Shown here one piece after another: positions 7,247 through 57,339 of a stretch of 64,000 bases of DNA. Under the pieces are notes generated by a model. It saw only the letters and a program-made list of their open reading frames with translations. It was not told where the DNA came from and did not search any database. The position numbers were made by a program, and so were the translations under genes. Source of the stretch: an uncultured Paraprevotella sp. (GTDB lineage: Bacteria > Bacteroidota > Bacteroidia > Bacteroidales > Bacteroidaceae); assembly GCA_944321345.1 (NCBI GenBank), contig CALUKY010000005.1:1-64000 (forward strand), written 5' to 3'. Within the stretch, counting starts at the first letter, position 1; every line of letters begins with the position of its first letter.

Positions 7247-7358
7247 CTTTATCATAGCATTATTGTTTTTTTACTTCAAAAAGTTTCTCTTTTTAAAGAA
7301 TTATGCTTTAATTTGTGGAATAAATCAAGAAAAACAATTTAAAATAACAATAAACAGT

Positions 7359-7523
7359 ATGAAGTATTTAGGTCTGCTCCTTATTATACTGGGAGCTATC
7401 ATTTTGATTCTAAGCTATACATTTGGCTGGGTAGACAACAATATGGTTAACGGTGGCGCCATGCTCCTGATGATTATCGGATTGGTGGCTCACATTATTC
7501 TGAACAAAAAATATCAGGACTAA
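7359..7523 (+). CDS. Small two-helix membrane protein
   Basis: This 54-residue protein starts at ATG 7359 (MKYLGLLLIILG). The frame is open further upstream but without a plausible start. Two hydrophobic helices (about 3-22 and 30-48) are separated by a short WVDNNMVNGG turn, and the tail is lysine-rich (NKKYQD), suggesting an inner-membrane hairpin. I do not recognise a named family. A strong terminator follows, so it is either monocistronic or the last gene after marR. Confidence 0.75.
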   Translation: MKYLGLLLIILGAIILILSYTFGWVDNNMVNGGAMLLMIIGLVAHIILNKKYQD

Positions 7524-7563
7524 TACTCTGTGTTTCTACCAAATCATCTATCTAACCGGAGAT

Positions 7564-10071: not shown

Positions 10072-12228
10072 CTATTCTGCTCCTTCTGTCATTTCAAACT
10101 GCTTGATAAGCTGAGCCTGAACATCAGCAGGAACCAGTTCATAGCTGGCATATTTCATAATAAACGACGCACGACCTCCAGTAAGCGAGCTCAAGGAAGT
10201 GCTGTAATTAGACATTTCCTTCAAAGGAACTTTGGCAACCAGTTTCTCATAGCCGTTTTCACTGGACATACCCAGAATCATACCACGACGTCCTTGCAAA
10301 TCGCTCATCACATCACCCATCTTATCTGAAGGTACAAACACTTCTACATCATAAATAGGCTCAAGCAATTTCGGAGCAGCATTCTTAAATGCCTGACTGA
10401 AAGCATTGCGACCTGCCAGCATAAAGGACAATTCATTAGAATCTACCGGATGCATCTTTCCATCATAAACAATAACGCGCACGTCACGGGCATAAGAACC
10501 AGTAAGAGGTCCTTGCTCCATACGCTGCATGACTCCCTTCAGGATAGCTGGCATAAAGCGTGCATCAATAGCACCACCTACAACTGAATTAATGAATACC
10601 AGTTTACCGCCCCAATCCAGAGATACTTCCTCTTTACCTTTAATATTAATACGGTACTCCTGACCGTCGAACTTATAAACATCCGGATCGGGCATTCCTT
10701 CATAATAAGGTTCTACAATGAGGTGTACCTCACCAAACTGACCAGCACCACCGGACTGTTTCTTGTGACGGTAATCGGCACGGGCTGCCTTGGTAATCGT
10801 TTCACGATAAGGAATACGGGGTTCATCAAACACAATATTGATCTTATCGATATTCTCCATACGCCACTTCAAAGTACGCAAATGGAATTCACCCTGACCA
10901 TGAAGCAAGATCTGGCGTAACTCCTTGCTCTGCTCAACCATCCAAGTCGGATCTTCCTCATGCATACGCCACAGAGCATTCATCATCTTCTCGGTCTCGG
11001 CTTCGTTCTGGGCACGTACCGCACGGGTATACTTCGGATTCGGATATTTGATGAAGTTGAAACGGTTCTCGGCATCCTTGGCATTCAAGGTATTTCCGGT
11101 CTTCACATCTTTCAACTTCACAGTACAACCGATATCACCGGCTACCAGTTCCTCAACCTTGATACGGTTTGGACCGGCACAAACAAACAACTGCGACATA
11201 CGCTCCTTGGAACCACGATCGGCATTGGTCAGATCATCACCTTCGTGTACTTTTCCGCTCATCACCTTAAAATACTGTACTTCACCGATATGCGGTTCTA
11301 CAGCAGTTTTAAAGAAATAAAGAGAGGTCGGACCATCAGAATCAGGTACCACTTCAACACCACGGGTATTGTGTACTTTAGGCATCTCATTTACAAAAGG
11401 TACCACATTGCCCAAGAATTCCATCAAACGGCGCACACCCATATCCTTTCCGGCACAAACACAGAATACCGGGAACATACTGCGGGCAGCCAATCCCTTA
11501 CGGATACCTTCACGCATTTCATCTTCAGTAAGACTTTCGCTTTCAAAGAATTTCTCCATCAAAGTTTCATCGTTTTCAGCAGCAGCCTCAACCAAAGCCT
11601 TATGCATCATCATAGCTTTCTCTTTCTGCTCTTCCGGAATCTCTTCAATAGTCGGTTCACCGCCATCCGGACCCCAAGAATATTTCTTCATCAACAAGAC
11701 ATCAATCAATGAGTTGAACGACGGACCGGTTTCTATAGGATATTGAACCGGAACGACCTTATTGCCATAAATAGAAACCAACTGATCCAGAATCATGTCG
11801 TAATCGCATTTCTCATCATCCAATTGGTTAACCAGGAAAATCACAGGTTTACCCAACTTTTCCGTATATCGGAAATGATTTTGGGTACCTACCTCCGGAC
11901 CATACTGTCCGTTCAGCAACAAAATCGCCGTATCGGTAACATTCATTGCGGTAATCGCACTTCCGATAAAGTCATCAGCTCCCGGACAATCAATAATATT
12001 CAGCTTCTTGCCATTCCACTCTACATGGAACACAGAAGAAAAAACAGAATATCCATATTCCTGCTCTACCGGAAAATAATCACTCACTGTATTTTTGGCT
12101 GTGATTCTTCCTCTGCGCTTGATCAGTCCGCTCTCATAAAGCAATGCTTCTGTTAAAGTAGTCTTACCTGAACCGTCATTTCCTAATAAGGCAATGTTCT
12201 TAATCTCATTTGTCTGATATATTCTCAT
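10072..12228 (-). CDS. fusA2: Elongation factor G paralog (EF-G2 type) with altered GTPase motifs
   Basis: This 718-residue protein has the full EF-G domain order, but its G-domain motifs deviate from canonical EF-G. G1 is GNDGSGKTT (16-24) instead of AHxDAGKTT. Switch I reads EYGYSVF where RGITIT is expected. G3 is DCPGADDF (80-87), with alanine where the catalytic histidine of DTPGHVDF sits. G4 is NQLD (134-137) instead of NKxD. Established knowledge: Bacteroides thetaiotaomicron encodes an EF-G paralog, EF-G2 (BT2167), reported to support translation without GTPase activity and to matter in the gut. The neighbouring rpsF operon and rprXY match my recollection of that locus. Orthology is inferred; loss of hydrolysis is inferred from the missing histidine. 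Confidence 0.88.
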   Translation of the reverse strand: MRIYQTNEIKNIALLGNDGSGKTTLTEALLYESGLIKRRGRITAKNTVSDYFPVEQEYGYSVFSSVFHVEWNGKKLNIIDCPGADDFIGSAITAMNVTDTAILLLNGQYGPEVGTQNHFRYTEKLGKPVIFLVNQLDDEKCDYDMILDQLVSIYGNKVVPVQYPIETGPSFNSLIDVLLMKKYSWGPDGGEPTIEEIPEEQKEKAMMMHKALVEAAAENDETLMEKFFESESLTEDEMREGIRKGLAARSMFPVFCVCAGKDMGVRRLMEFLGNVVPFVNEMPKVHNTRGVEVVPDSDGPTSLYFFKTAVEPHIGEVQYFKVMSGKVHEGDDLTNADRGSKERMSQLFVCAGPNRIKVEELVAGDIGCTVKLKDVKTGNTLNAKDAENRFNFIKYPNPKYTRAVRAQNEAETEKMMNALWRMHEEDPTWMVEQSKELRQILLHGQGEFHLRTLKWRMENIDKINIVFDEPRIPYRETITKAARADYRHKKQSGGAGQFGEVHLIVEPYYEGMPDPDVYKFDGQEYRINIKGKEEVSLDWGGKLVFINSVVGGAIDARFMPAILKGVMQRMEQGPLTGSYARDVRVIVYDGKMHPVDSNELSFMLAGRNAFSQAFKNAAPKLLEPIYDVEVFVPSDKMGDVMSDLQGRRGMILGMSSENGYEKLVAKVPLKEMSNYSTSLSSLTGGRASFIMKYASYELVPADVQAQLIKQFEMTEGAE

Positions 12229-12356
12229 GATGTAATATATTTTTAAGGTTTTATTTTTTAAGCGAGGGCAATTTATAAAAAATCATCGAAGATGCCATAA
12301 AAAAAAGAACTTATTATTTATGTTATTCAACATGTTCCATATTCCTACAAAATCAC

Positions 12357-12364
12357 TAACTTTG
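12357..12364 (+). promoter_or_regulatory. -7 box for hemW
   Basis: TAACTTTG matches TAnnTTTG and lies 25 bases before the hemW ATG. Confidence 0.5.
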
Positions 12365-12388
12365 TATCAAACTGATAATAGAACTTTT

Positions 12389-13555
12389 ATGGCCGGAATT
12401 TATATTCATATCCCTTTCTGCAAACAACGTTGCGTATACTGCGATTTTTATTCTACAACTCACCAGGAGAAAGAAGACCGCTATATTGAAGCTGTATGCA
12501 CGGAACTGAAATGGCGCAGACAAACACTATCCGACCAGATTCATACTATATATATAGGTGGAGGCACTCCTTCATTACTTCGCCCTCAGTCTATTGAGCA
12601 ACTCAAAAAAAACATATACCAATACTATCCGATAGCCCCAGAACCGGAATTTACCATAGAAGCCAATCCGGATGACATTACCCCGGAATGGCTGGAAGCA
12701 ATGAAATGTATTGGTATAAATCGTATCAGTATGGGAGTACAAAGTTTTCATAATGATATGCTAAAACTGATCCACAGGAGACATAGTGGCGAAAAAGCAA
12801 TTGAGGCCGTAAAACTTTGCCAGAAACATGGATTCAAGAATATAAGCATTGATCTGATCTATGGTCTGCCGGGACAAACGCTACAAGACTGGCAAGAAGA
12901 TGTAAGGCTGGCTATAGCTCTGAATGTGCAACATATCTCGACATATGCTTTAATCTATGAGGAAGGCACCCTCCTATGGCAATGGCGGGAACAAAAAAAA
13001 GTATATGAAGCGGACGAAGAATTAAGTCTGGCCATGTTTGAATATCTGATTACCCAACTCAAAGAGAATGGCTTTGAGCATTACGAGATATCAAATTTCG
13101 GCAAACCCGGATTTCACTCCCGCCATAATTCTTCTTACTGGAACAATATACCTTATCTGGGATGTGGTGCAGCAGCGCATTCGCTAATCGGCACGGAAAG
13201 GATGTATAATGTGGCCAACCTAAATCAATATATGGACAATATGAATCAATATGATAAAGGCAACCTGAACTACAAAGATGTATGTCATTGTGAAGAACTC
13301 AGTTTCCATGAACGTTATAATGACCGAATCATCACTTGCCTGCGGACAGCGGCCGGACTTAACCTGAAAGAACTGGAAACTGATTTCGGTACGGGCCTGA
13401 AAGACTATTGCCTTAAAATGGCAGCACCACATCTGAATGAAAAAACCTTGCAGATAACCGATACTGACCGTTATCCGCAAGGTGTACTGAAATTAACTCA
13501 TCAAGGAATATTCCTGTCTGATGGAATTATGAGTGATTTACTTTGGGTCGAATAG
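12389..13555 (+). CDS. hemW: Radical-SAM heme chaperone HemW
   Basis: HemW is a radical-SAM protein related to HemN that binds heme and delivers it to acceptor proteins. It was long misnamed oxygen-independent coproporphyrinogen oxidase. The start MAGIYIHIPFCKQRCVYCDF begins at ATG 12389 and gives 388 residues. The [4Fe-4S] motif is CKQRCVYC (C-x3-C-x2-C). Further family marks are IYIGGGTPSLL, EANPDDITPEW, GINRISMGVQSF and DLIYGLPGQT. The ~388-residue length fits HemW rather than the longer HemN. A frame upstream to 12320 is open, but it would cross the promoter. Confidence 0.92.
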   Translation: MAGIYIHIPFCKQRCVYCDFYSTTHQEKEDRYIEAVCTELKWRRQTLSDQIHTIYIGGGTPSLLRPQSIEQLKKNIYQYYPIAPEPEFTIEANPDDITPEWLEAMKCIGINRISMGVQSFHNDMLKLIHRRHSGEKAIEAVKLCQKHGFKNISIDLIYGLPGQTLQDWQEDVRLAIALNVQHISTYALIYEEGTLLWQWREQKKVYEADEELSLAMFEYLITQLKENGFEHYEISNFGKPGFHSRHNSSYWNNIPYLGCGAAAHSLIGTERMYNVANLNQYMDNMNQYDKGNLNYKDVCHCEELSFHERYNDRIITCLRTAAGLNLKELETDFGTGLKDYCLKMAAPHLNEKTLQITDTDRYPQGVLKLTHQGIFLSDGIMSDLLWVE

Positions 13556-45780: not shown

Positions 45781-46153
45781 TTACTCAGAGGTGTCATTGA
45801 TGTACCGTTCTTCCTTTTCAGACTTTCTAAAATTTATGCATAATATGCTTTCCCCCACTAAATATCGGGTGAGCCGCCGTGAGCCGTCCCGATTCTGTCT
45901 ACGCCCGAAACAGAAAATAGAGATAACTCGCTAAAATTCAGCTTGTTATCTCTATTTTAGTTGCGGAGGCCCGACCTTTTCTTATTTTATCGTATTTTTC
46001 CGCATACTCATTATCAGGTTGTTACCGCTTGATTTTTGTGCGTTTTAGCTTTCTTTTGTCCCGATTTTGTCCCGGTACAAACGAAAAAAAACATGATTTT
46101 ATTTTTACTTTTTTACTATCTTGCAACCTTTCTTTGGATGGCTCCTATTCCAC
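45781..46153. other. Prophage left-end non-coding region
   Basis: There is no convincing gene here. A perfect 14-bp inverted repeat (AAAATAGAGATAAC at 45914-45927 with its complement at 45945-45958) lies in it. The attachment site core should fall between here and the host fragment, but cannot be fixed without the right end. The direct neighbourhood (GTTGCGGAGGCCCGAC at 45960-45975) faintly resembles a reversed tRNA 3' end. Confidence 0.45.
45914..45958. repeat. 14-bp perfect inverted repeat at prophage edge
   Basis: Both arms are exact and the loop is 17 bases. It could be a recombinase arm site or a terminator for the repressor gene, whose stop codon is ~195 bases away. Confidence 0.6.
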
Positions 46154-47504: not shown

Positions 47505-47799
47505 AGCCATATTTATCACAAATCCAAATAGTGCCTTTTGGTTACGTATCTATAGGCGCAGTGGCAAATATCTTGCCTTAGGAAATTTTCTTCCTTCTGC
47601 CTATCCGTCATTTATTGACAATCTGGAAAAACTGGTTCATCTCGAGCAGGTCAGTAATTATGATGACACAATGATGGGTGTTTTTGTTTTTGGCTGTACT
47701 CGAGGTCTTCCAGTCGTTAGCATTCAGAATGCCTTGGTTCAACTCGATTATTTACCACCCCAAAATCATATTCATCATGGCCAAACAAAGCAACCGTAA
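47485..47799 (+). CDS. Hypothetical phage protein, 104 residues
   Basis: A 104-residue soluble protein, start overlapping the previous gene's end by 20 bases. No motif is recognised. Its middle (SGKYLALGNFLPSAYPSFIDNLEKLVHLEQ) looks globular. Its 3' end overlaps the next gene, which begins at 47777. Real by position and overlaps in a tight operon; function unknown. Confidence 0.55.
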   Translation: MKTAKNKAIFITNPNSAFWLRIYRRSGKYLALGNFLPSAYPSFIDNLEKLVHLEQVSNYDDTMMGVFVFGCTRGLPVVSIQNALVQLDYLPPQNHIHHGQTKQP

Positions 47800-48184
47800 T
47801 TGGACGGCTGATGAAGACCGAATTCTTCGGCGAGAAATCGCAAATCATCGCCCAATCGCATCCATTGCTCGTTTATTGGGTAAGACTGAAACGGCAGTTT
47901 ATCTATATGCTTATCGTCATCGTATAGCTTTGAAACCCACTATCAAAAATCCGGTTATGCGCAAACTTATTGAGATTAAGTTCGGTAGTGTGGAATATTT
48001 TTCTCCGACTCGTGACTTTTTTCAAAAAGTGAATATATCACAGAAACGATGGGCAGAATTGGTTTTCGGATATGCTCCGGCCACCACAGAAGAAATCTCA
48101 AGAGTTGCAAAGACTCTTAACTATTCCTTAGACGAGGCGTTTAAACTTTTGGACTGCAGACCTCAGAGTCTGTTCCCTGATTAA
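47777..48184 (+). CDS. SANT/Myb-like DNA-binding protein
   Basis: A 135-residue protein starting at ATG 47777 (MAKQSNRNWTADEDRILRREI). Its first ~50 residues have the Myb/SANT pattern with spaced Trp and a helix-turn-helix-like LLGKTETAVYLYAYRHRI. The C-terminal part (ISQKRWAELVFGYAPATTEEISRVAKTLN) is another helical module resembling a HTH. It is likely a small DNA-binding protein of the phage early region, placed directly before the primase-helicase. Its target is unknown. Confidence 0.65.
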   Translation: MAKQSNRNWTADEDRILRREIANHRPIASIARLLGKTETAVYLYAYRHRIALKPTIKNPVMRKLIEIKFGSVEYFSPTRDFFQKVNISQKRWAELVFGYAPATTEEISRVAKTLNYSLDEAFKLLDCRPQSLFPD

Positions 48185-48192
48185 TTAGTATT

Positions 48193-51100
48193 ATGGCAAA
48201 TATCATCCCACAACATATTATCGATTCCATCCAAGATGCTGCCAATATTGTGCAGATCATCGGAGAGGATATCAACCTGAAAAAAATGGGAGTTAACTAT
48301 GTAGGACTATGCCCGTTTCACTCTGATCGGACACCTTCTCTCATAGTTTCACCTTCTAAAAGGTTATTCAAATGTTTCGCTTGTGGAGAGGGTGGAAATA
48401 TTTTCGCCTGGTTCCAGAAGTATCATAATATGTCGTTTCCCGAAGCCGTTCGGGAAGTCGGCAAACGCTGTCACATCGAAGTGCCGACGGTGGATCTTTC
48501 GCCGGAAGAGAAGACAGCTATGCAGCTCAAAGAAGCTGCAGAACTGGTGTTGCAGGAATCTTCCCGTATTTTTCGGGCTAATCTGCAGACCAATGATCTG
48601 GCAAAAACCTATCTGGCCGAACGTAAAATCAATCAGGAGACCGCCGATCTTTACCAGATTGGCTATACTTCTGAATATAATGGCTTGACCACCACTTTGC
48701 GCAATCTTGGGTACTCCGAACTAAATATTCTAGCTTCGGGCATTGCCTATAAGAACGATCGCAATGAATTGCGCGATGCATATTTTTCACGTCTGGTCAT
48801 CCCCTTCTTCTCCATATCCGGCAAAATGCTCGGCTTTGTTGGGCGTGATATTACCGGTAAGCAAGCGGCTAAATATAAGAACAGCCCGGATACCGTCCTA
48901 TTCAAGAAGGATCATGTCCTGTTCGGCCTGTTCCAGGCGCGTAAAGCAATCACAGAAAAGGGATTTGTCTATATCTGTGAAGGACAGTTTGATGTGTTAT
49001 CACTGGCTCAGCGTGGTGTCCGTAATGTTATTGCGGCTAGCGGAACCGCCTTCTCGGAGCATCAGCGCCGTCTTCTCCACTCAGTTACAACGAAGCTTGT
49101 GTTCATCCTCGATGGAGATGCTGCCGGCATTAAGGCGGCACTTAAACATATCCCTGCGGCTGTCAAAGATAACTTTGAAGTCATGACCGTAGCTCTTCCT
49201 GACGGTAAAGATCCGGATGATATGGCTAAAAAGCTGGAGTCAGAACTTCCCCAATATCTGCAGGAGCATACGATATCTTATGTGCAATATTACGCCAAGT
49301 ATCTGTTGGCAGATAACGATGATGCATATACCAGACAAAACAAGATCAAGCAAATCCTTGAAGTCATTGCGATGGAACAGGACAGCATCATCCGGCAGAG
49401 ATTCCTGTCCGAGTTATCATCCCCCTCTGGCTATGCACTGGATGATCTAAAGCAAATGATCTCCAAACAAGTGCCAGACGTGCCAGTTCAAAGCACACCT
49501 GGCTTCTATGGAATGGAGTTCGCGCAGGATTTCATCGACGAAGATCTGAAGGAAATCCATCTCGTACGAGATTATAACAGATTTCAAACGCTTCTAGGTG
49601 AACAACAACCTTATCTTTATGTTTCAGGCATTCCACCTTTGGCATCCATTCAGGATCTCTCCAGTCAGATCGAACGTATTATCTTTCATTCTCCGGTTAT
49701 GGAAGCAGATGGCCGAAATGAAAGTGAAGACCTTAAAACCATGAAGGCCCTTTACACTTTTGGCTTGACAGTGGATGTATCTCTTGATAGCAAGGTTTCC
49801 GGTTTCATTTATGCTTACGTTTCTTTTTACGGAAACTTGATCACAGACTCTGCTCCAACGCCGGAAATAAAAAACACCTTCATTACCCGTTGCGCAGAGA
49901 TGATTTCTTATGCTTCTCAGCCGATTCAAACGGTCAATATGTCGGCGTGGGCCAACTACCTCGGGCTTAAAGTTTCAGCTCTCAAAGAGGTTCTGAAGCC
50001 CTTTGTTCAGGAACGTAAGAGTCAACGCAAAATTGAAAAGGAGCGTGGCGATGTCTATGCCGATACGTTAGATATTGATCTGGAGAAAGTTCCGGATTAT
50101 GTCACTCAGAATGATGAATACAACCGCATGCTGCAGCGTTACGGCTTTTTCCCGATCCTGAACAAAAAGCAGGAGCCGGTCAGTTATATGTTCCGTTCCG
50201 ACTCCGGGAGTCTTCGCCGTGTGGCCGACTTCTATATGCAGCCTCTTTTCCACGTATATTCTGATGATCCTAATGAGAATCGTCGTGTCATCCGATTGAC
50301 CTCTCTTTATCTGCCTGGAGCTAAATATGTGGAGTTCCCTTCGACGACCTTCGCCAAGCTGGGCAAATTAACTGAGCAGCTGATCAACAAAGGCGCTTAT
50401 AATTTTGAGGGTGGTTCCGCAGCAGACTACGCCAAAATCTGGGCATGCATGTCGTACAACTTCCCACTGGTAAATGAAATCAAGGTCTTTGGACAGCAAC
50501 CTGAAGGCTGCTTCCTTTTCGCCAACGGCATCCTGCATGAAGTTGAAGGTTGCTGGAAATTCGAATATGCCGATGAACTGGGCCTAATGGAACATCAGAA
50601 AACCCTGTTTTACAGTCCCGCCTTCAGCAAGGTAAACATGGCCATGCGTAAAGATTCAGACCGGTATGAGCAAGACCGATGGCTGGTCTATTCCGAAACT
50701 CCGGAGAATAAGAGAATCACCTGGCAGCACTGGGCAGAACTGATGGATGAAGTCTACAAGATCAATGACAACGGGAAATGGGCCATCATGTATGCGATTA
50801 TGTGTGCATTCCGTAGCGATATCCATCCGATCAACCGCCTGTTCACTTCCATCTTCTTCATTGGTCCTACAATGTCAGGAAAGACGCAGATAGCAGTTTC
50901 CATCCGTTCCTTATTCATTAAACCGGATGCTCCCTGCTTCAATCTCAACTCCGGAACAGACGCGGCCTTCTTTTCCGTTCTCGAGCGTTTCCGTGACGTT
51001 CCTCAGGTATTCGAAGAGTATAATGATGATATGATATCCGATGCCAAGTTTCAGGGATTGAAATCTGTTACTTATGATGGCGACGGCAAGCAGAAGCGCA

Positions 51101-52095
51101 AGGCAGCTACCGGCAACGATATCGAGACATCCAAGGTGAATGCACCGGTCGTTCTACTGGGACAGGAAGCACCACAAAAAGACGATAATGCCCTTTCAAA
51201 TCGTGTCGTTCTTTGCGAAGTGCCCAAAAAAGAAGAGATCAATGAGCAACACGCTCGAGAGATATTTGAAGAGCTGAAGGCTGCTGAAAAGGCCGGACTA
51301 TCTTACTTATTAGTCGAAATCCTGAAGCTTCGTCCAATCGTCCAAGAACACTTCGCCCGGTTGCAAAAAGAAGCTCAGACAGAACTTCGCAATGCCATAG
51401 AATCATCAGGTTCCACGTCCGGAGATCAAACCCGAGTGATCCTCACGGTTAGTATATTCCTGGGGATGTGCAAGCTGATGACGACTTATGCAACACACTT
51501 GAAGCTCCCATTCACCTACGAAAATTTCAAAAGTCTTGCTATTGAGAAAGTTAAGAAACAAGTCAGCATGCTGACGAAAACCGACAAACTGGCCACATTC
51601 TTCTCTACGATGGACTATCTGCTTGATAAAGGCACACTCAAAGCTGGCCGAGATATTAAGATTGAAAGTCCCGGAAGGACAATTCGGCTTAAAGGAGGCC
51701 GTGAATATACTCCACCTTCTGCAACCACTCAGCTTTTATATATGAATCTGAGCAACGTCCATAAGATGTATTGCGCGGCCATGACGGGCGACAAGCCCCT
51801 TTCCATTACCACACTCGAGGTAAACCTGAACTCTCACCCTGCCTTTGTCGGCATGGTATCTAATACCCGATTCCGCTGGCAGGAAACCGAAGAAGTGCCT
51901 TACGGCGGAACCATCGTCGAGAATGGTGTGAATGTTCCGGACACCACGATGCGCAAGGTTATCAAGCAAAGAGAGAAGCAGACCAGTGCTATCGTATTGA
52001 ATTACGACATCCTGAAGAACCTCTTAGGTATAGACCTCGAACGCTCTTGTCGTCAGGATCCGCCAGAAGCTATTGAACAAGAATTACCATTTTAA
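48193..52095 (+). CDS. Phage primase-helicase fusion
   Basis: A 1300-residue replication protein. The N-terminal DnaG-like CHC2 zinc finger has Cys40-x2-His43 and Cys61-x2-Cys64 (LCPFHSDRTPS; KCFACGEGGNIF). The Toprim core (~residues 255-315) shows EGQFDVLSL and FILDGDAAGIKAA. The C-terminal AAA+/SF3-like helicase half has Walker A GPTMSGKTQ at ~890-898 and an acidic FEEYND segment at ~940, followed by SNRVVLCEVPKKE. It would prime and unwind phage DNA in one chain. The middle ~450 residues are unassigned. The next gene begins 13 bases after. Confidence 0.85.
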   Translation: MANIIPQHIIDSIQDAANIVQIIGEDINLKKMGVNYVGLCPFHSDRTPSLIVSPSKRLFKCFACGEGGNIFAWFQKYHNMSFPEAVREVGKRCHIEVPTVDLSPEEKTAMQLKEAAELVLQESSRIFRANLQTNDLAKTYLAERKINQETADLYQIGYTSEYNGLTTTLRNLGYSELNILASGIAYKNDRNELRDAYFSRLVIPFFSISGKMLGFVGRDITGKQAAKYKNSPDTVLFKKDHVLFGLFQARKAITEKGFVYICEGQFDVLSLAQRGVRNVIAASGTAFSEHQRRLLHSVTTKLVFILDGDAAGIKAALKHIPAAVKDNFEVMTVALPDGKDPDDMAKKLESELPQYLQEHTISYVQYYAKYLLADNDDAYTRQNKIKQILEVIAMEQDSIIRQRFLSELSSPSGYALDDLKQMISKQVPDVPVQSTPGFYGMEFAQDFIDEDLKEIHLVRDYNRFQTLLGEQQPYLYVSGIPPLASIQDLSSQIERIIFHSPVMEADGRNESEDLKTMKALYTFGLTVDVSLDSKVSGFIYAYVSFYGNLITDSAPTPEIKNTFITRCAEMISYASQPIQTVNMSAWANYLGLKVSALKEVLKPFVQERKSQRKIEKERGDVYADTLDIDLEKVPDYVTQNDEYNRMLQRYGFFPILNKKQEPVSYMFRSDSGSLRRVADFYMQPLFHVYSDDPNENRRVIRLTSLYLPGAKYVEFPSTTFAKLGKLTEQLINKGAYNFEGGSAADYAKIWACMSYNFPLVNEIKVFGQQPEGCFLFANGILHEVEGCWKFEYADELGLMEHQKTLFYSPAFSKVNMAMRKDSDRYEQDRWLVYSETPENKRITWQHWAELMDEVYKINDNGKWAIMYAIMCAFRSDIHPINRLFTSIFFIGPTMSGKTQIAVSIRSLFIKPDAPCFNLNSGTDAAFFSVLERFRDVPQVFEEYNDDMISDAKFQGLKSVTYDGDGKQKRKAATGNDIETSKVNAPVVLLGQEAPQKDDNALSNRVVLCEVPKKEEINEQHAREIFEELKAAEKAGLSYLLVEILKLRPIVQEHFARLQKEAQTELRNAIESSGSTSGDQTRVILTVSIFLGMCKLMTTYATHLKLPFTYENFKSLAIEKVKKQVSMLTKTDKLATFFSTMDYLLDKGTLKAGRDIKIESPGRTIRLKGGREYTPPSATTQLLYMNLSNVHKMYCAAMTGDKPLSITTLEVNLNSHPAFVGMVSNTRFRWQETEEVPYGGTIVENGVNVPDTTMRKVIKQREKQTSAIVLNYDILKNLLGIDLERSCRQDPPEAIEQELPF

Positions 52096-52108
52096 AAAAT
52101 GATTGCTT

Positions 52109-52381
52109 ATGAGAAACATTGAAAAAGAAGTTATCCGACATAAAGTCATCAGGATTATCAAACCCTATTGTATTAACACCCCTGAATTGACAGATAAATT
52201 AAGTGCAGATTGCGGAATAGACAGTCTTGATGCTATGGGGATATCTGTGGATCTGGAACGCGAATTCAATCTTCCATTGACTTATGATGATGCTCTGGAT
52301 GTTCGTTGGTGTGACGCAACTGTTTCAGATCTGACCGAAGATATTATTAATCGTGTCGAACAAATAAACAAAGGCTTATGA
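52109..52381 (+). CDS. Acyl-carrier-like protein encoded by phage
   Basis: A 90-residue protein from ATG 52109 (a TTG two codons earlier is possible) with the size and shape of an acyl carrier protein. The 4'-phosphopantetheine site DSLD carries Ser39 in DCGIDSLDAMGISVDLEREF, and the acidic helix and C-terminal VSDLTEDIINRV follow. No fatty-acid or polyketide genes are near. It lies between a primase-helicase and small unknown genes, and its stop overlaps the next start (ATGA). It may sequester or redirect the host phosphopantetheine or fatty-acid machinery; that is speculation. Confidence 0.8.
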   Translation: MRNIEKEVIRHKVIRIIKPYCINTPELTDKLSADCGIDSLDAMGISVDLEREFNLPLTYDDALDVRWCDATVSDLTEDIINRVEQINKGL

Positions 52382-53198: not shown

Positions 53199-54311
53199 AT
53201 GGAATCTGAAAAAGAACAAACTCTAATTGAATATATCTCCTATCTATATCAAACAAATAGGAGTTATGAGGTTATTGGCAGACACATTAGGGCTGTTAAA
53301 GAGTTTCTGGATAGTGATAATCCGATATCCGTAAAAGGGTATAAAGATTACGTTAAAACGAATTCTTTAAATCTGATCCGTTGTCCGCTGGCAAAAGAAG
53401 CCTTATGTCAGTTTTTAAGGTATAAAGGTGTAGGGCATCGGAAGTCACCATCGAAAAAGGTAATAAAACCACTGGAAAAACTCAGTGTTATATCCGAAAA
53501 GAACCTGAAGTTAGTCAATGATTTTATCTATTACCTGACACAAGAAGAAGACTATTCTCCACATACCTTAGATGTCTATTCGGTTTCGCTCAAGAAATAT
53601 TTCGAATACGCAAACGAGATCTCCGTGGATAATTACAAACGTTTTGTGCAGATGATGGAAAATGAAGGGTATGCACCTCAGACGATAAGACTTCGTATCA
53701 CGGCTTTGGAACGTTTCAGCAAATGGATGAAGAAACCGATCGAATTAAAACGACCAAAATTCCAAAGAAGGCTTAACACAGAAAATGTTCCGACAGAAGC
53801 AGAATACCAACGACTGTTGGAATATCTCAAAACAAGACCTAACCAAGATCAATACTTCTTCATTAAGATTCTGGCCACTACCGGTGCTCGTATATCCGAA
53901 TTCATTCAATTTCGTTGGGAGGATATTGTTCGGGGAGAAGTAACTCTCAAGGGAAAGGGGAACAAATACCGGAGATTCTTTTTTACACGACAGTTGCAGT
54001 CAGAAGTAAAAGAATATATCCGTAACACCGACAAAACAGGATATGTGGCCGTAGGAAAGTATGGCAGGATGACACAACGAAATATATCCATGGCCATGAA
54101 GAACTGGGGCCGAAAGTGCGATATAGACAAAAGCAAGATGCACCCGCACGCCTTTCGTCACTTCTTCGCTAAAATGTTTTTGAAAAAGAACAAAGACGTG
54201 ATACAACTGGCCGAAATTATGGGACATGGAAGCATTGATACAACAAGAATTTATTTGCAGAAATCGTATGACGAACAAAAAAGAGATTTTAATCGAAATG
54301 TTACGTGGTAG
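53199..54311 (+). CDS. Tyrosine recombinase (phage integrase/XerC-like)
   Basis: A 370-residue tyrosine recombinase with all catalytic residues: R231 (ATTGARISEF), a candidate beta-hairpin lysine at K251 or K253, H317-x-x-R320 (HPHAFRHFF), H343 (MGHGS) and nucleophile Y352 (RIYLQKS). The N-terminal SAM-like core-binding domain spans about residues 100-190 (VNDFIYYLTQEEDYSPHTLDVY). It is the only integrase seen and the natural candidate for prophage integration, but it sits ~7.4 kb inside the left end. It overlaps the following methyltransferase gene. Confidence 0.9.
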   Translation: MESEKEQTLIEYISYLYQTNRSYEVIGRHIRAVKEFLDSDNPISVKGYKDYVKTNSLNLIRCPLAKEALCQFLRYKGVGHRKSPSKKVIKPLEKLSVISEKNLKLVNDFIYYLTQEEDYSPHTLDVYSVSLKKYFEYANEISVDNYKRFVQMMENEGYAPQTIRLRITALERFSKWMKKPIELKRPKFQRRLNTENVPTEAEYQRLLEYLKTRPNQDQYFFIKILATTGARISEFIQFRWEDIVRGEVTLKGKGNKYRRFFFTRQLQSEVKEYIRNTDKTGYVAVGKYGRMTQRNISMAMKNWGRKCDIDKSKMHPHAFRHFFAKMFLKKNKDVIQLAEIMGHGSIDTTRIYLQKSYDEQKRDFNRNVTW

Positions 54312-55266
54312 CATTACCCAGCTAAAAGAATTGCCACAATATATGACAGACGTGGATATATACACAGAAACCGGGCATGTAGATAACAAATTTCTGCTGG
54401 AGGCTTTGACGTGCGTCAACGAATTTATGTCGGTTAGTAATCTTGTGGTGAATACTATATCACAATTGTTGGCTCCAAATGTCGACAGTGGCAAAGACAA
54501 GAAGGCAGAGGATCAGGGTAGTAAATGGAGCGTAGAAGACATCCTGAAGCATTGCACATTAGAAGATAATATCCTCAAACTTCCGAAGGTGCAGTTTAAT
54601 AAAAAATCCTATGCCGAAGCCAAGAAGTGGATTGAAGAAGCTGGCGGAAGTTGGCAGGGTGGCAAGGTACAAGGATTCACATTCCCTTTCAATGCCGATC
54701 GTGTATTCTCGATCCTTCACGAGGGTAAACGCTGTAACTTACAGCAGGAGTTCCAGTTTTTTGCGACGCCCCCTGAGGTGGCCGACTGGTTGGTAATGCT
54801 TGCCGGAGGAATCCATGAGCGTGAAACAGTTCTGGAACCAAGTGCCGGAACCGGAGCAATTATTGATGCCATTCATCGAAGCTGTGAGAACGTGGTTGTA
54901 GATTGTTTCGAGCTCATGCCTGAGAATGTTGAGATCTTGAATAAAAAGACCAACATCCGGCTCTTAGGCGAAGACTTTACAACGGCCAATCTTAAGCTGT
55001 ATGACAAGATTATTGCTAACCCACCATTTAGCCGAAATCAAGATATCAGGCATGTTCGGAAAATGTATGATGCGCTAAAACCCAATGGAACAGTAGCGGC
55101 CATCACATCCTGCCATTGGCGGATCGCCAAAGAAAAGGAATGTTGTGACTTCCGAAATTGGTTAGATCAGGTCGGAGGCGTATGCTATTCCATAGATCAA
55201 GGAGAATTCGCAACAAGTGGAACAATGATCGAGACATTGGCGATTGTAATTAAGAAACAAAATTAA
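54268..55266 (+). CDS. Adenine-type DNA methyltransferase
   Basis: An N6-adenine-type methyltransferase with SAM-binding LEPSAGTGAIIDAI and the catalytic NPPF (IANPPFSRNQD). About 110 N-terminal residues form an unassigned helical extension, followed by KWIEEAGGSWQGGKVQGFTFPF, which may be target recognition or DNA binding. Start choices are ATG 54268 (332 residues) or ATG 54298; the frame opens earlier at 54226 within the recombinase. No restriction endonuclease is adjacent, so it is an orphan methylase, probably protecting or marking phage DNA. Confidence 0.82.
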   Translation: MTNKKEILIEMLRGSITQLKELPQYMTDVDIYTETGHVDNKFLLEALTCVNEFMSVSNLVVNTISQLLAPNVDSGKDKKAEDQGSKWSVEDILKHCTLEDNILKLPKVQFNKKSYAEAKKWIEEAGGSWQGGKVQGFTFPFNADRVFSILHEGKRCNLQQEFQFFATPPEVADWLVMLAGGIHERETVLEPSAGTGAIIDAIHRSCENVVVDCFELMPENVEILNKKTNIRLLGEDFTTANLKLYDKIIANPPFSRNQDIRHVRKMYDALKPNGTVAAITSCHWRIAKEKECCDFRNWLDQVGGVCYSIDQGEFATSGTMIETLAIVIKKQN

Positions 55267-56255: not shown

Positions 56256-56444
56256 CATTCAGCGGGTGTCGGCATTGCCGGCATCCGCTGCCGTGCATTC
56301 TTTGAGTGCCGACAGCCAGACATTCCTCCTGATCACAGTCAAGCATCTGCTTATTGGTGACTTCTCCTAAACAAAAATCCCCCGGGCCCCCTACCCTATA
56401 AAAGAGATTTTTTAAAGAGCCTTTGAAAAACGGCGAAAACCCCG

Positions 56445-56729
56445 ACCAACGGACCAACAGACCAACGGGGCGTGAATTTTTCAATATAATTTATGGATAA
56501 TATATTGATATATAGATAAATACTTCTTGTTGGTTGGTTGTTGGTTTTACGTTGGTTCGTTGGTTTTAGGGGGTGTTTTGTTGGTTTTAGGTGTTCTTAA
56601 CACTTTGTGTTAAAACCAACAGATAGGGGTTCTGTTGGTCTGTTGGTCGCTCTGTTGGTCGGATGATAAATGCTTAAATCTCTTATTTTCAAATATTTAT
56701 TATTTCTGTTGGTCTGTTGGTCGGTTGGT
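56445..56729. repeat. GTTGGT/ACCAAC iteron-like array
   Basis: Sixteen copies of GTTGGT in 285 bases. Four are inverted: ACCAAC at 56445, 56453, 56461 and 56615. Twelve are direct: 56529, 56533, 56540, 56551, 56559, 56580, 56634, 56642, 56654, 56708, 56716 and 56724. Many lie exactly 8 bases apart: the three left copies (GACCAACR units), 56551-56559, 56634-56642, and 56708-56716-56724 (TGTTGGTC units). Opposed arrays flank an AT-rich segment. Fits iterons of a replication origin; other multi-site binding is possible. Confidence 0.8.
56580..56620. repeat. Hairpin within the GTTGGT array
   Basis: GTTGGTTTTA (56580-56589) and TAAAACCAAC (56611-56620) are perfect 10-bp inverted arms, with a nested GTGTT-CTT-AACAC hairpin inside. 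It is built from the array units themselves. Could be a cruciform or a terminator of the early operon. Confidence 0.65.
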
Positions 56730-56757: not shown

Positions 56758-57339
56758 ATGAAAAATAAAACTCACTACTGTAATCTGAAGGTGACTCCTT
56801 ATGTCTATCATTACTTACTCCGCAACTATGGTGTCACATGTAAACTGCCCGATGCGGTTAGTTTTTCAAAGGATCCTGTTCTTCGTCGTATCATCACCTC
56901 GATGATAAAGGCTCCCAGCAATCGATATAACAAGCGCCAGCTGGGCTACAAGTTCACAAAGCGTACCTGTCAGGTTAGCATTGTCGTTCCTGAAGCGACT
57001 CACTCTGGTTGGCTGCTGACAGATACAGATGCCTCTGATCTTGCACTTATCCTTGAGCGACGTTGCCATGCCATTATGATTGCATACATCAATATGCACT
57101 TGATTTTTGCGTCGACGCTGAAGGAATGCATTCTTGACTTCCAGAAAAAATTTGGTTTTTCTGAGGATGTCTGGAGCTATGATACGATTCGCCGAATATA
57201 CAATCGGGACAATACTTTTGATCGATACAACGTCAAAAACTTTATTTTCCGCGAATTTAACAAAATTTATACTGTGCAAATGAGACGCGCAGGGCTACTT
57301 TATCAACAACTAAATGACATTGAAAATGAAACATTATGA
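56758..57339 (+). CDS. Basic hypothetical protein next to the repeat array
   Basis: A 193-residue basic protein (MKNKTHYCNLKVTPYVYHYL) starting 29 bases after the last array copy. It has mixed helix/strand composition with many Arg/Lys/Tyr. FGFSEDVWSYDTIRRIYNRDN near residues 140-160 could be a helix-turn-helix or a DNA-contacting segment. No catalytic motif. By position it is the first candidate for a protein that binds the array, or a late-gene activator. Not identified as any known family. Confidence 0.6.
   Translation: MKNKTHYCNLKVTPYVYHYLLRNYGVTCKLPDAVSFSKDPVLRRIITSMIKAPSNRYNKRQLGYKFTKRTCQVSIVVPEATHSGWLLTDTDASDLALILERRCHAIMIAYINMHLIFASTLKECILDFQKKFGFSEDVWSYDTIRRIYNRDNTFDRYNVKNFIFREFNKIYTVQMRRAGLLYQQLNDIENETL

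Follow-up and report, generated by a model that had tools for sequence, protein, structure and literature searches.

What does a dense block of short, oppositely oriented repeats do for the phage that carries it? In the window, by which we mean the whole 64-kb stretch of DNA analysed here, the hexamer GTTGGT and its complement ACCAAC occur in 16 exact copies within 285 bp (56445-56729), and a first-pass annotation had read this array as a phage replication origin, or else as a partition or packaging site. Because the array is conserved, its layout stays constant despite drift of its letters, and the origins of PICI elements provide a precedent, we infer, with a probability of roughly 0.77, that the segment 56379-56729 serves as replication origin (ori) for a temperate prophage of roughly 42 kb.

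That the array is real and far beyond chance is confirmed. In 2000 dinucleotide shuffles of the 322 bp around it, GTTGGT/ACCAAC appeared on average 0.56 times and never more than 4 times, and no hexamer with at least two G/C letters exceeded 6 copies; in the window outside the array, the densest such hexamer reached 5 per 285 bp. The whole window holds 48 copies of GTTGGT/ACCAAC against 27.4 expected, a count reached in none of 100 shuffles. In its own genome assembly (91% complete) the array matched nothing but itself, with no second copy there, and the cumulative GC skew showed no turn at the array.

Unit positions define a left iteron triplet of three ACCAAC on the reverse strand (56445-56466, starts at 56445, 56453 and 56461) and a right triplet of three GTTGGT on the forward strand (56708-56729, starts at 56708, 56716 and 56724), both stepped by 8 and 8 bp. 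Between them stand the central iterons (56529-56659, forward strand), in which GTTGGT predominates, a single unit (56615) is reversed, and a further pair at 56634 and 56642 is spaced by 8 bp. An inverted-repeat search recovered a hairpin of two opposed units at 56579-56621, whose arms (56579-56589 and 56611-56621) are 11 nt each and fully complementary. The tract at 56475-56522, a proposed DNA unwinding element on the basis of base composition and a stability scan, is 90% AT over its first 40 bp, and the 50-bp stretch that starts with it, lying between iteron sets, had the lowest stability of 17,950 stretches tested between 46 and 64 kb. A second AT-rich spacer, visible in the sequence, occupies 56664-56707. 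The first-pass annotation had already described the 16 copies, the 8-bp-phased opposed triplets, the AT-rich stretch between them, the hairpin made of two array units and a 193-residue reading frame just downstream, and all of these were borne out with two small corrections: the hairpin arms measure 11 nt, not 10 bp, and the reading frame starts 28 bp, not 29 bp, past the last repeat.

The surroundings of the array are those of a phage genome. A 22-bp direct repeat at 46054 has a second copy at contig position 88161, which adjoins an integrase gene (contig 86922-88115) and a tRNA-Met gene (contig 88240-88313), suggesting that the direct repeats bound a prophage of about 42.1 kb of which the window holds the left part; virion genes for a head maturation protease, a portal-like protein and a tape measure protein lie between them. 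On the forward strand, a gene at 47777-48184 codes for a small Myb-like helix-turn-helix protein, known from weak matches and an accessory candidate, with a QLSLF-like C-terminal tail (here PQSLF). It is followed at 48193-52095, also on the forward strand, by the gene for a 1300-aa primase-helicase, the proposed initiator; Pfam recognises a DnaG zinc ribbon, DNAG_N and Toprim, and we read a P-loop-like region beyond Toprim. The C-terminal region of the enzyme (51364-52092, forward strand) is a candidate iteron-reading domain.

The array stands 4.3 kb from the primase gene, with other genes between, among them a methyltransferase-like gene (54226-55266) before the array. Directly after the primase gene, a small gene (52103-52381) gives a phosphopantetheine-attachment (acyl-carrier-like) match (PF00550, E 7.3e-6). 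A tyrosine recombinase gene (53199-54311) also lies between primase and array, besides the integrase at the prophage end, and in the cultured Cellulophaga phage Ingeline_1 an integrase gene likewise separates the primase from the array. On its other side the array adjoins the 193-aa gene (56758-57339, forward strand), a conserved array neighbour with 79 homologous ORFs, after which come a head maturation protease gene and others. The gene at contig 63223-64947, 6.5 kb from the array, resembles a large terminase weakly (Terminase_6N, E 0.0009, below the Pfam cut-off) and had no PHROG match. Seventeen window proteins from the region 46.1-57.8 kb were scanned against Pfam or PHROGs, in scans that may overlook remote relatives, and gave no match to a Rep-type plasmid initiator and none to ParA/ParB-type genes.

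In order to compare the array with related loci, several searches were combined. With the 16-mer TGTTGGTCTGTTGGTC as octamer bait, IMG/VR DNA yielded 49 stretches, 17 of them with at least 4 units within 350 bp; several share the layout of triplet, AT core and triplet, and one octamer-found set has the array beside a homologue of the window primase and a small gene. These small genes are either of the window type (p193) or shorter (p156), and the two are joined by hhalign (E 1.3e-5, probability 80%); the joint family of p193 and p156 is called pl here. An alignment of the primase provided a search independent of the octamer, from which the best 80 of 244 viral relatives were taken. A protein search of phage records matched 320, 18 of them from Porphyromonas, and eight regions from such records, three of them Porphyromonas, were inspected. 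A Paludibacteraceae contig (L107) has both pl and repeats. Relatives such as this contig and the Porphyromonas phages suggest that the prophage's host probably belongs to the Bacteroidales. Other searches were less productive: the 193-aa protein alone found no related loci, and in 61 genomes (the window's own and 60 relatives) it occurred in the own genome and one other; the pattern CCCCCGNACCCCCNAAATT matched none of 393 genomes, not even the window's own, and is thus too strict; and a triple-octamer pattern scan of genome contigs gave at least 118 stretches, many of which resemble tandem octamer runs in one direction.

One set of loci was considered as sharing the window's reader and rejected. 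These loci (L012, L016, L032, L039, L046 and L056) carry a DUF3987 helicase, assigned by Pfam in three of them and by homology in the others, and because the octamer itself had been the bait, the octamer letters common to them may be chance. By hhalign, no alignment was obtained between this helicase and the primase (E 0.087 and 0.73) or between the protein beside the array and pl (E 0.25 and 0.32), and the sole remaining link is a weak, Myb-like one (hhalign E 1.6e-4, probability 51%). In these GC-rich loci (L012 5775-6041, L046 3041-3301 and similar ones), TGTTGGTC arrays stand directly at the 3' end of the helicase gene.

Deduplication kept 56 of 88 primase loci, the window among them, and 36 of these 56 also hold pl. 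An array was called where a single hexamer was present in 7 or more copies at the 3' end of the primase gene or the 5' end of pl, and this was so in 31 of the 36 loci with both genes (window counted) compared to 25 of 2640 random background pieces. Three of the five misses (L193, L197 and L199) have arrays of mixed GTWGGW letters with 12, 13 and 9 units, and the remaining two (L259 and L264) lack an array at both places. In the 26 loci where pl is more than 800 bp away from the primase, the array adjoins pl in 13 (window included) and the primase in 8, and it is present at both ends in one (L258) and, by hexamer count, at neither in 4; in the 8 with a primase-end array, pl starts 0.9-6.7 kb further on. 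The two arrays of L258 have different motifs, TCTACA at the primase end (7324-7538) and GTTACA before pl (12208-12437). Where the gap is 800 bp or less, 9 of 10 loci have the array inside the gap or over the predicted pl start. The 20 deduplicated loci without pl include 3 with a primase-end array and 17 with none by count, though in L190 and L191 among these 17 an array is visible by eye, and two contigs of the 17 end right after the primase. Because arrays were found in 31 of 36 loci against 25 of 2640 background pieces, the gene order primase-array-pl is conserved as far as these loci go, and inserted genes may separate the array from the primase or from pl.

The letters of the octamer vary between phages, with TGTTGGTC, TGTTGGAC, TGTAGGAC and TGTGGAAC all represented. 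L185 has TGTAGGTC/TGTAGGAC, L187 and L188 have TGTTGGAC, L189 has TGTAGGA, and further families occur elsewhere. The architecture was compared in 30 arrays of the GTWGGW kind with distinct layouts, a sample that includes near relatives and one doubtful array (L204); in this sample, reversed units come first and forward units last in 26 of 30 arrays, and in 29 of 30 a 40-bp AT tract ranks in the top 1% of its locus for AT content. The number of units reaches 19, in both directions (L195). The 8-bp period, which the first-pass annotation had pointed out, is kept in nearer relatives and absent from distant ones, where same-strand neighbours at 8 bp number 0 of 10 in L243 and 0 of 9 in L246, and on this comparison it is a trait of the window's lineage, nearer relatives included, and not of the kind of array. 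Two cultured phages fit by eye while falling below the hexamer-count threshold: Ingeline_1, with the octamer TGTGGAAC, 8-bp phase and an AT tract, and Flavobacterium phage FPSV-D35, with a TGTTGAGA array 3' of the primase. Comparison with related prophages, which had been proposed as a check of the origin reading, found the position and architecture of the array kept, and the flanking genes and octamer letters changed; the lack of conservation that the first-pass annotation had named as a refutation did not occur.

The left border of the module is marked by an element outside the interval 56445-56729 originally annotated, the C-box CCCCCGGGCCCCC (56379-56391, forward strand). The sequence CCCCCNNNCCCCC occurs at 34 distinct places, many of them near-copies, in 1.39 Mb of 89 loci, and 33 of the 34 lie at the left border of an array, on the same strand and one per locus (for L202, which is among these 33, the locus is truncated at that point). 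In 22 of the 30 distinct-layout arrays, a C-box stands 53-74 bp before the first repeat unit. As an independent seed, the 16-bp C-box AATCCCCCGCACCCCC was scanned over viral contigs and found 20 loci, 11 of which have an array just to the right, 7 on new contigs and 4 on contigs already in the set; in two of them (L278 and L287) the array hexamer count (6 and 11) only ties the locus maximum, and these were counted from the phased units seen. The loci found in this way include octamers never used as bait. Eight of the 9 without an array have a GC content of 0.49 or more and look like chance matches. In L276 (GC 0.38), a C-box around 1397 (reverse strand reading) comes with a pl gene and no recognisable array beside it.

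A search for the C-box sequence in literature text gave a paper on i-motifs in silkworm as its only match. The residue just before the CFGCG motif, which we take to be the zinc-domain lysine associated with a CCC start preference of primases, is K in the window primase; since phages that lack the box commonly have K as well, and the box-bearing L219 has H, this residue provides no test of priming at the C-box. An excerpt of PMC5204125 describes the primases of Aquifex and C. difficile as preferring CCC starts, a trait tied to a lysine of the zinc domain, and the C-box is perhaps, by analogy, a primer start site.

These elements can be assembled into a proposed mechanism. Octamers of the TGTTGGTC type would serve as binding sites for an initiator encoded by the phage, the likeliest candidate being the C-terminal domain of its primase-helicase, and the opposed triplets and central units would assemble a nucleoprotein complex at which the AT tract (56475-56522) melts. 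The helicase part would then load at the melted tract and the DnaG part would lay primers, possibly at the conserved C-box. The octamer would drift together with the initiator, giving each phage lineage its own origin address.

The place of the array directly upstream of pl, which precedes the head genes in the window, would also suit an operator or promoter region of a pl-led operon, where pl or another phage protein times late transcription. The array likewise stands at pl in 13 of the 26 wide-gap loci, and pl identity drops with octamer class about as primase identity does. We consider such an operator unlikely. In 8 of the same 26 loci the array keeps to the primase 3' end with pl 0.9-6.7 kb beyond it; a sigma-70-type scan, with other promoter types outside its range, was no richer than shuffles (4 versus 2.7 expected); and as many as 19 two-way units (L195) and the least stable DNA would exceed the needs of an operator. 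The partition or packaging site of the first-pass annotation, be it centromere-like or a pac/cos site bound by a small-terminase-like pl, loses ground in the comparison as the origin half of that alternative gains it. Phased repeats with a small-protein reader suit such sites, and pl precedes structural genes; set against this, the gene with the weak Terminase_6N match lies 6.5 kb away, some arrays are found beside the primase and at a distance from pl, 41 pl members compared to Pfam or PHROGs at E 0.05 gave no match to a terminase or ParB family, and the 17 window proteins scanned gave no Par-type match. We judge a partition or packaging function very improbable.

If the array is an origin, three proteins are candidates for reading the octamers. 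The Myb-like protein encoded just before the primase (47777-48184) has a Pfam Myb match at E 0.0084, below the cut-off, and its best PDB chain is a Myb protein (E 0.013); its tail, which in many relatives reads QLSLF, QLELF or QQSLF, resembles what we take to be a sliding-clamp binding motif. L185 and L235 differ both in the presumed recognition helix of this protein (V/M) and in the octamer. Parsimony changes on the primase, pl and Myb-like trees numbered 3, 4 and 3 for one octamer letter, 3, 3 and 2 for the other and 6, 6 and 5 for both together, which singles out no binder and leans, if at all, towards the Myb-like tree. Against the Myb-like protein, only 39 ORFs of it occur in 88 loci, many array-bearing loci do without it, including arrays with other letters, and the highest identity between octamer classes is 94.2% for it (L208/L235) as opposed to 74.5% for the primase and 78.3% for pl. 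L235 is split in this respect: its primase and pl group with those of L187 (GTTGGA), its Myb-like gene groups with that of L185 (GTAGGA), and its array goes with the primase and pl. By highest between-class identity, the octamer thus appears to track the primase and pl better than the Myb-like protein. The parsimony counts do not bear this out, and the association of single alignment columns with octamer class settles nothing, since the best leave-one-out values of the top columns are about equal (Myb-like 0.95, pl 0.96, primase 0.92). An origin read by the Myb-like protein seems improbable to us.

The octamer comparisons do not tell the primase from pl as reader. The pl family comprises 79 homologous ORFs in the collected loci, or 51 at 90% redundancy, and its AlphaFold model (pLDDT 88.9) matched nothing in the PDB at E 0.001 and a single BFVD entry at that threshold, from Polaribacter phage Leef_1 (E 8.7e-5). 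It is a broad phage protein family with a confident predicted fold and no convincing relative in Pfam or the PDB. The C-terminal region of the primase-helicase was modelled as two short helices followed by a long beta hairpin (pLDDT 90.2); the model had no significant PDB match, and we read the predicted fold as compatible with a winged helix. As initiator or helicase recruiter in place of the primase-helicase, pl would be a strong rival: it adjoins the array in 13 of the 26 wide-gap loci, the window being one of them, so that by position it could equally be the reader, its identity falls with octamer class, and it has no known PDB fold; we regard it as a possible reader, short of a probable one. 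On the other side, 8 of the 26 loci keep the array beside the primase, and in P4 the reader is a primase-helicase. The PICI precedents in an excerpt of PMC6092414 use a primase-helicase or Rep. Because of the P4 and PICI precedents and the loci in which array and primase stand together away from pl, the C-terminal domain of the primase-helicase is preferred as the most likely reader of the octamers.

No description of this module was found in the open-licence literature, including excerpts of PMC10367356 (P. gingivalis phages) and PMC8776804 (flavophages). Only tentatively would we extend the interpretation to a widespread, undescribed replicon family of Bacteroidota phages with a DnaG-fused helicase and self-addressed origins, in which octamers diversify between lineages like incompatibility groups, the strand-fixed C-box is a dedicated site where the fused primase starts its primer, and unwinding and first priming share one 350-bp unit. 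Should the origin reading hold, simple rules could locate origins in many uncultured members of this phage group, the drifting octamers would provide a natural series for joint change of initiator and site, and the C-box would make a simple, testable claim on the position of the first primer.

Finally, the proposed origin can be set beside known systems. In phage lambda ori and in iteron plasmids, iterons lie beside an AT-rich melting region; unlike these, the window has no Rep-type initiator match among the 17 proteins compared, and the phage codes for its own primase-helicase. The ori and crr of P4 carry octamer iterons in both orientations with the letters TGTTCACC, and the C-terminal winged-helix domain of P4 alpha binds iterons. 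The window resembles P4 in its two-way octamers and in having a primase-helicase as the proposed reader, and differs from it in the octamer letters. Alpha is a primase-helicase according to an excerpt of PMC8628076, and its family named there, PF03288, has no match in the window primase, to which Pfam assigns DnaG and Toprim domains only. A close parallel in layout is offered by the PICI origins, which, according to an excerpt of PMC6092414 that includes plasmid tests, have an AT-rich region between two iteron sets and follow directly on the 3' end of the gene for the initiator, an organisation stated there to be common to no other known bacterial replicon. Like the PICI/SaPI origins of that excerpt, the window has two iteron sets around an AT-rich region and iteron letters specific to the element; a position 3' of the primase gene occurs among relatives, the window array lying 4.3 kb away. 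Unlike the PICI satellites, the window element is a phage that codes for head, portal-like and tail proteins itself, and unlike their origins it combines a 1300-aa DnaG-type primase-helicase with 16 units that include a central block and with a C-box on the left. If the origin reading is true, a design that the same excerpt of PMC6092414 calls peculiar to phage-inducible islands would extend to ordinary tailed temperate phages.
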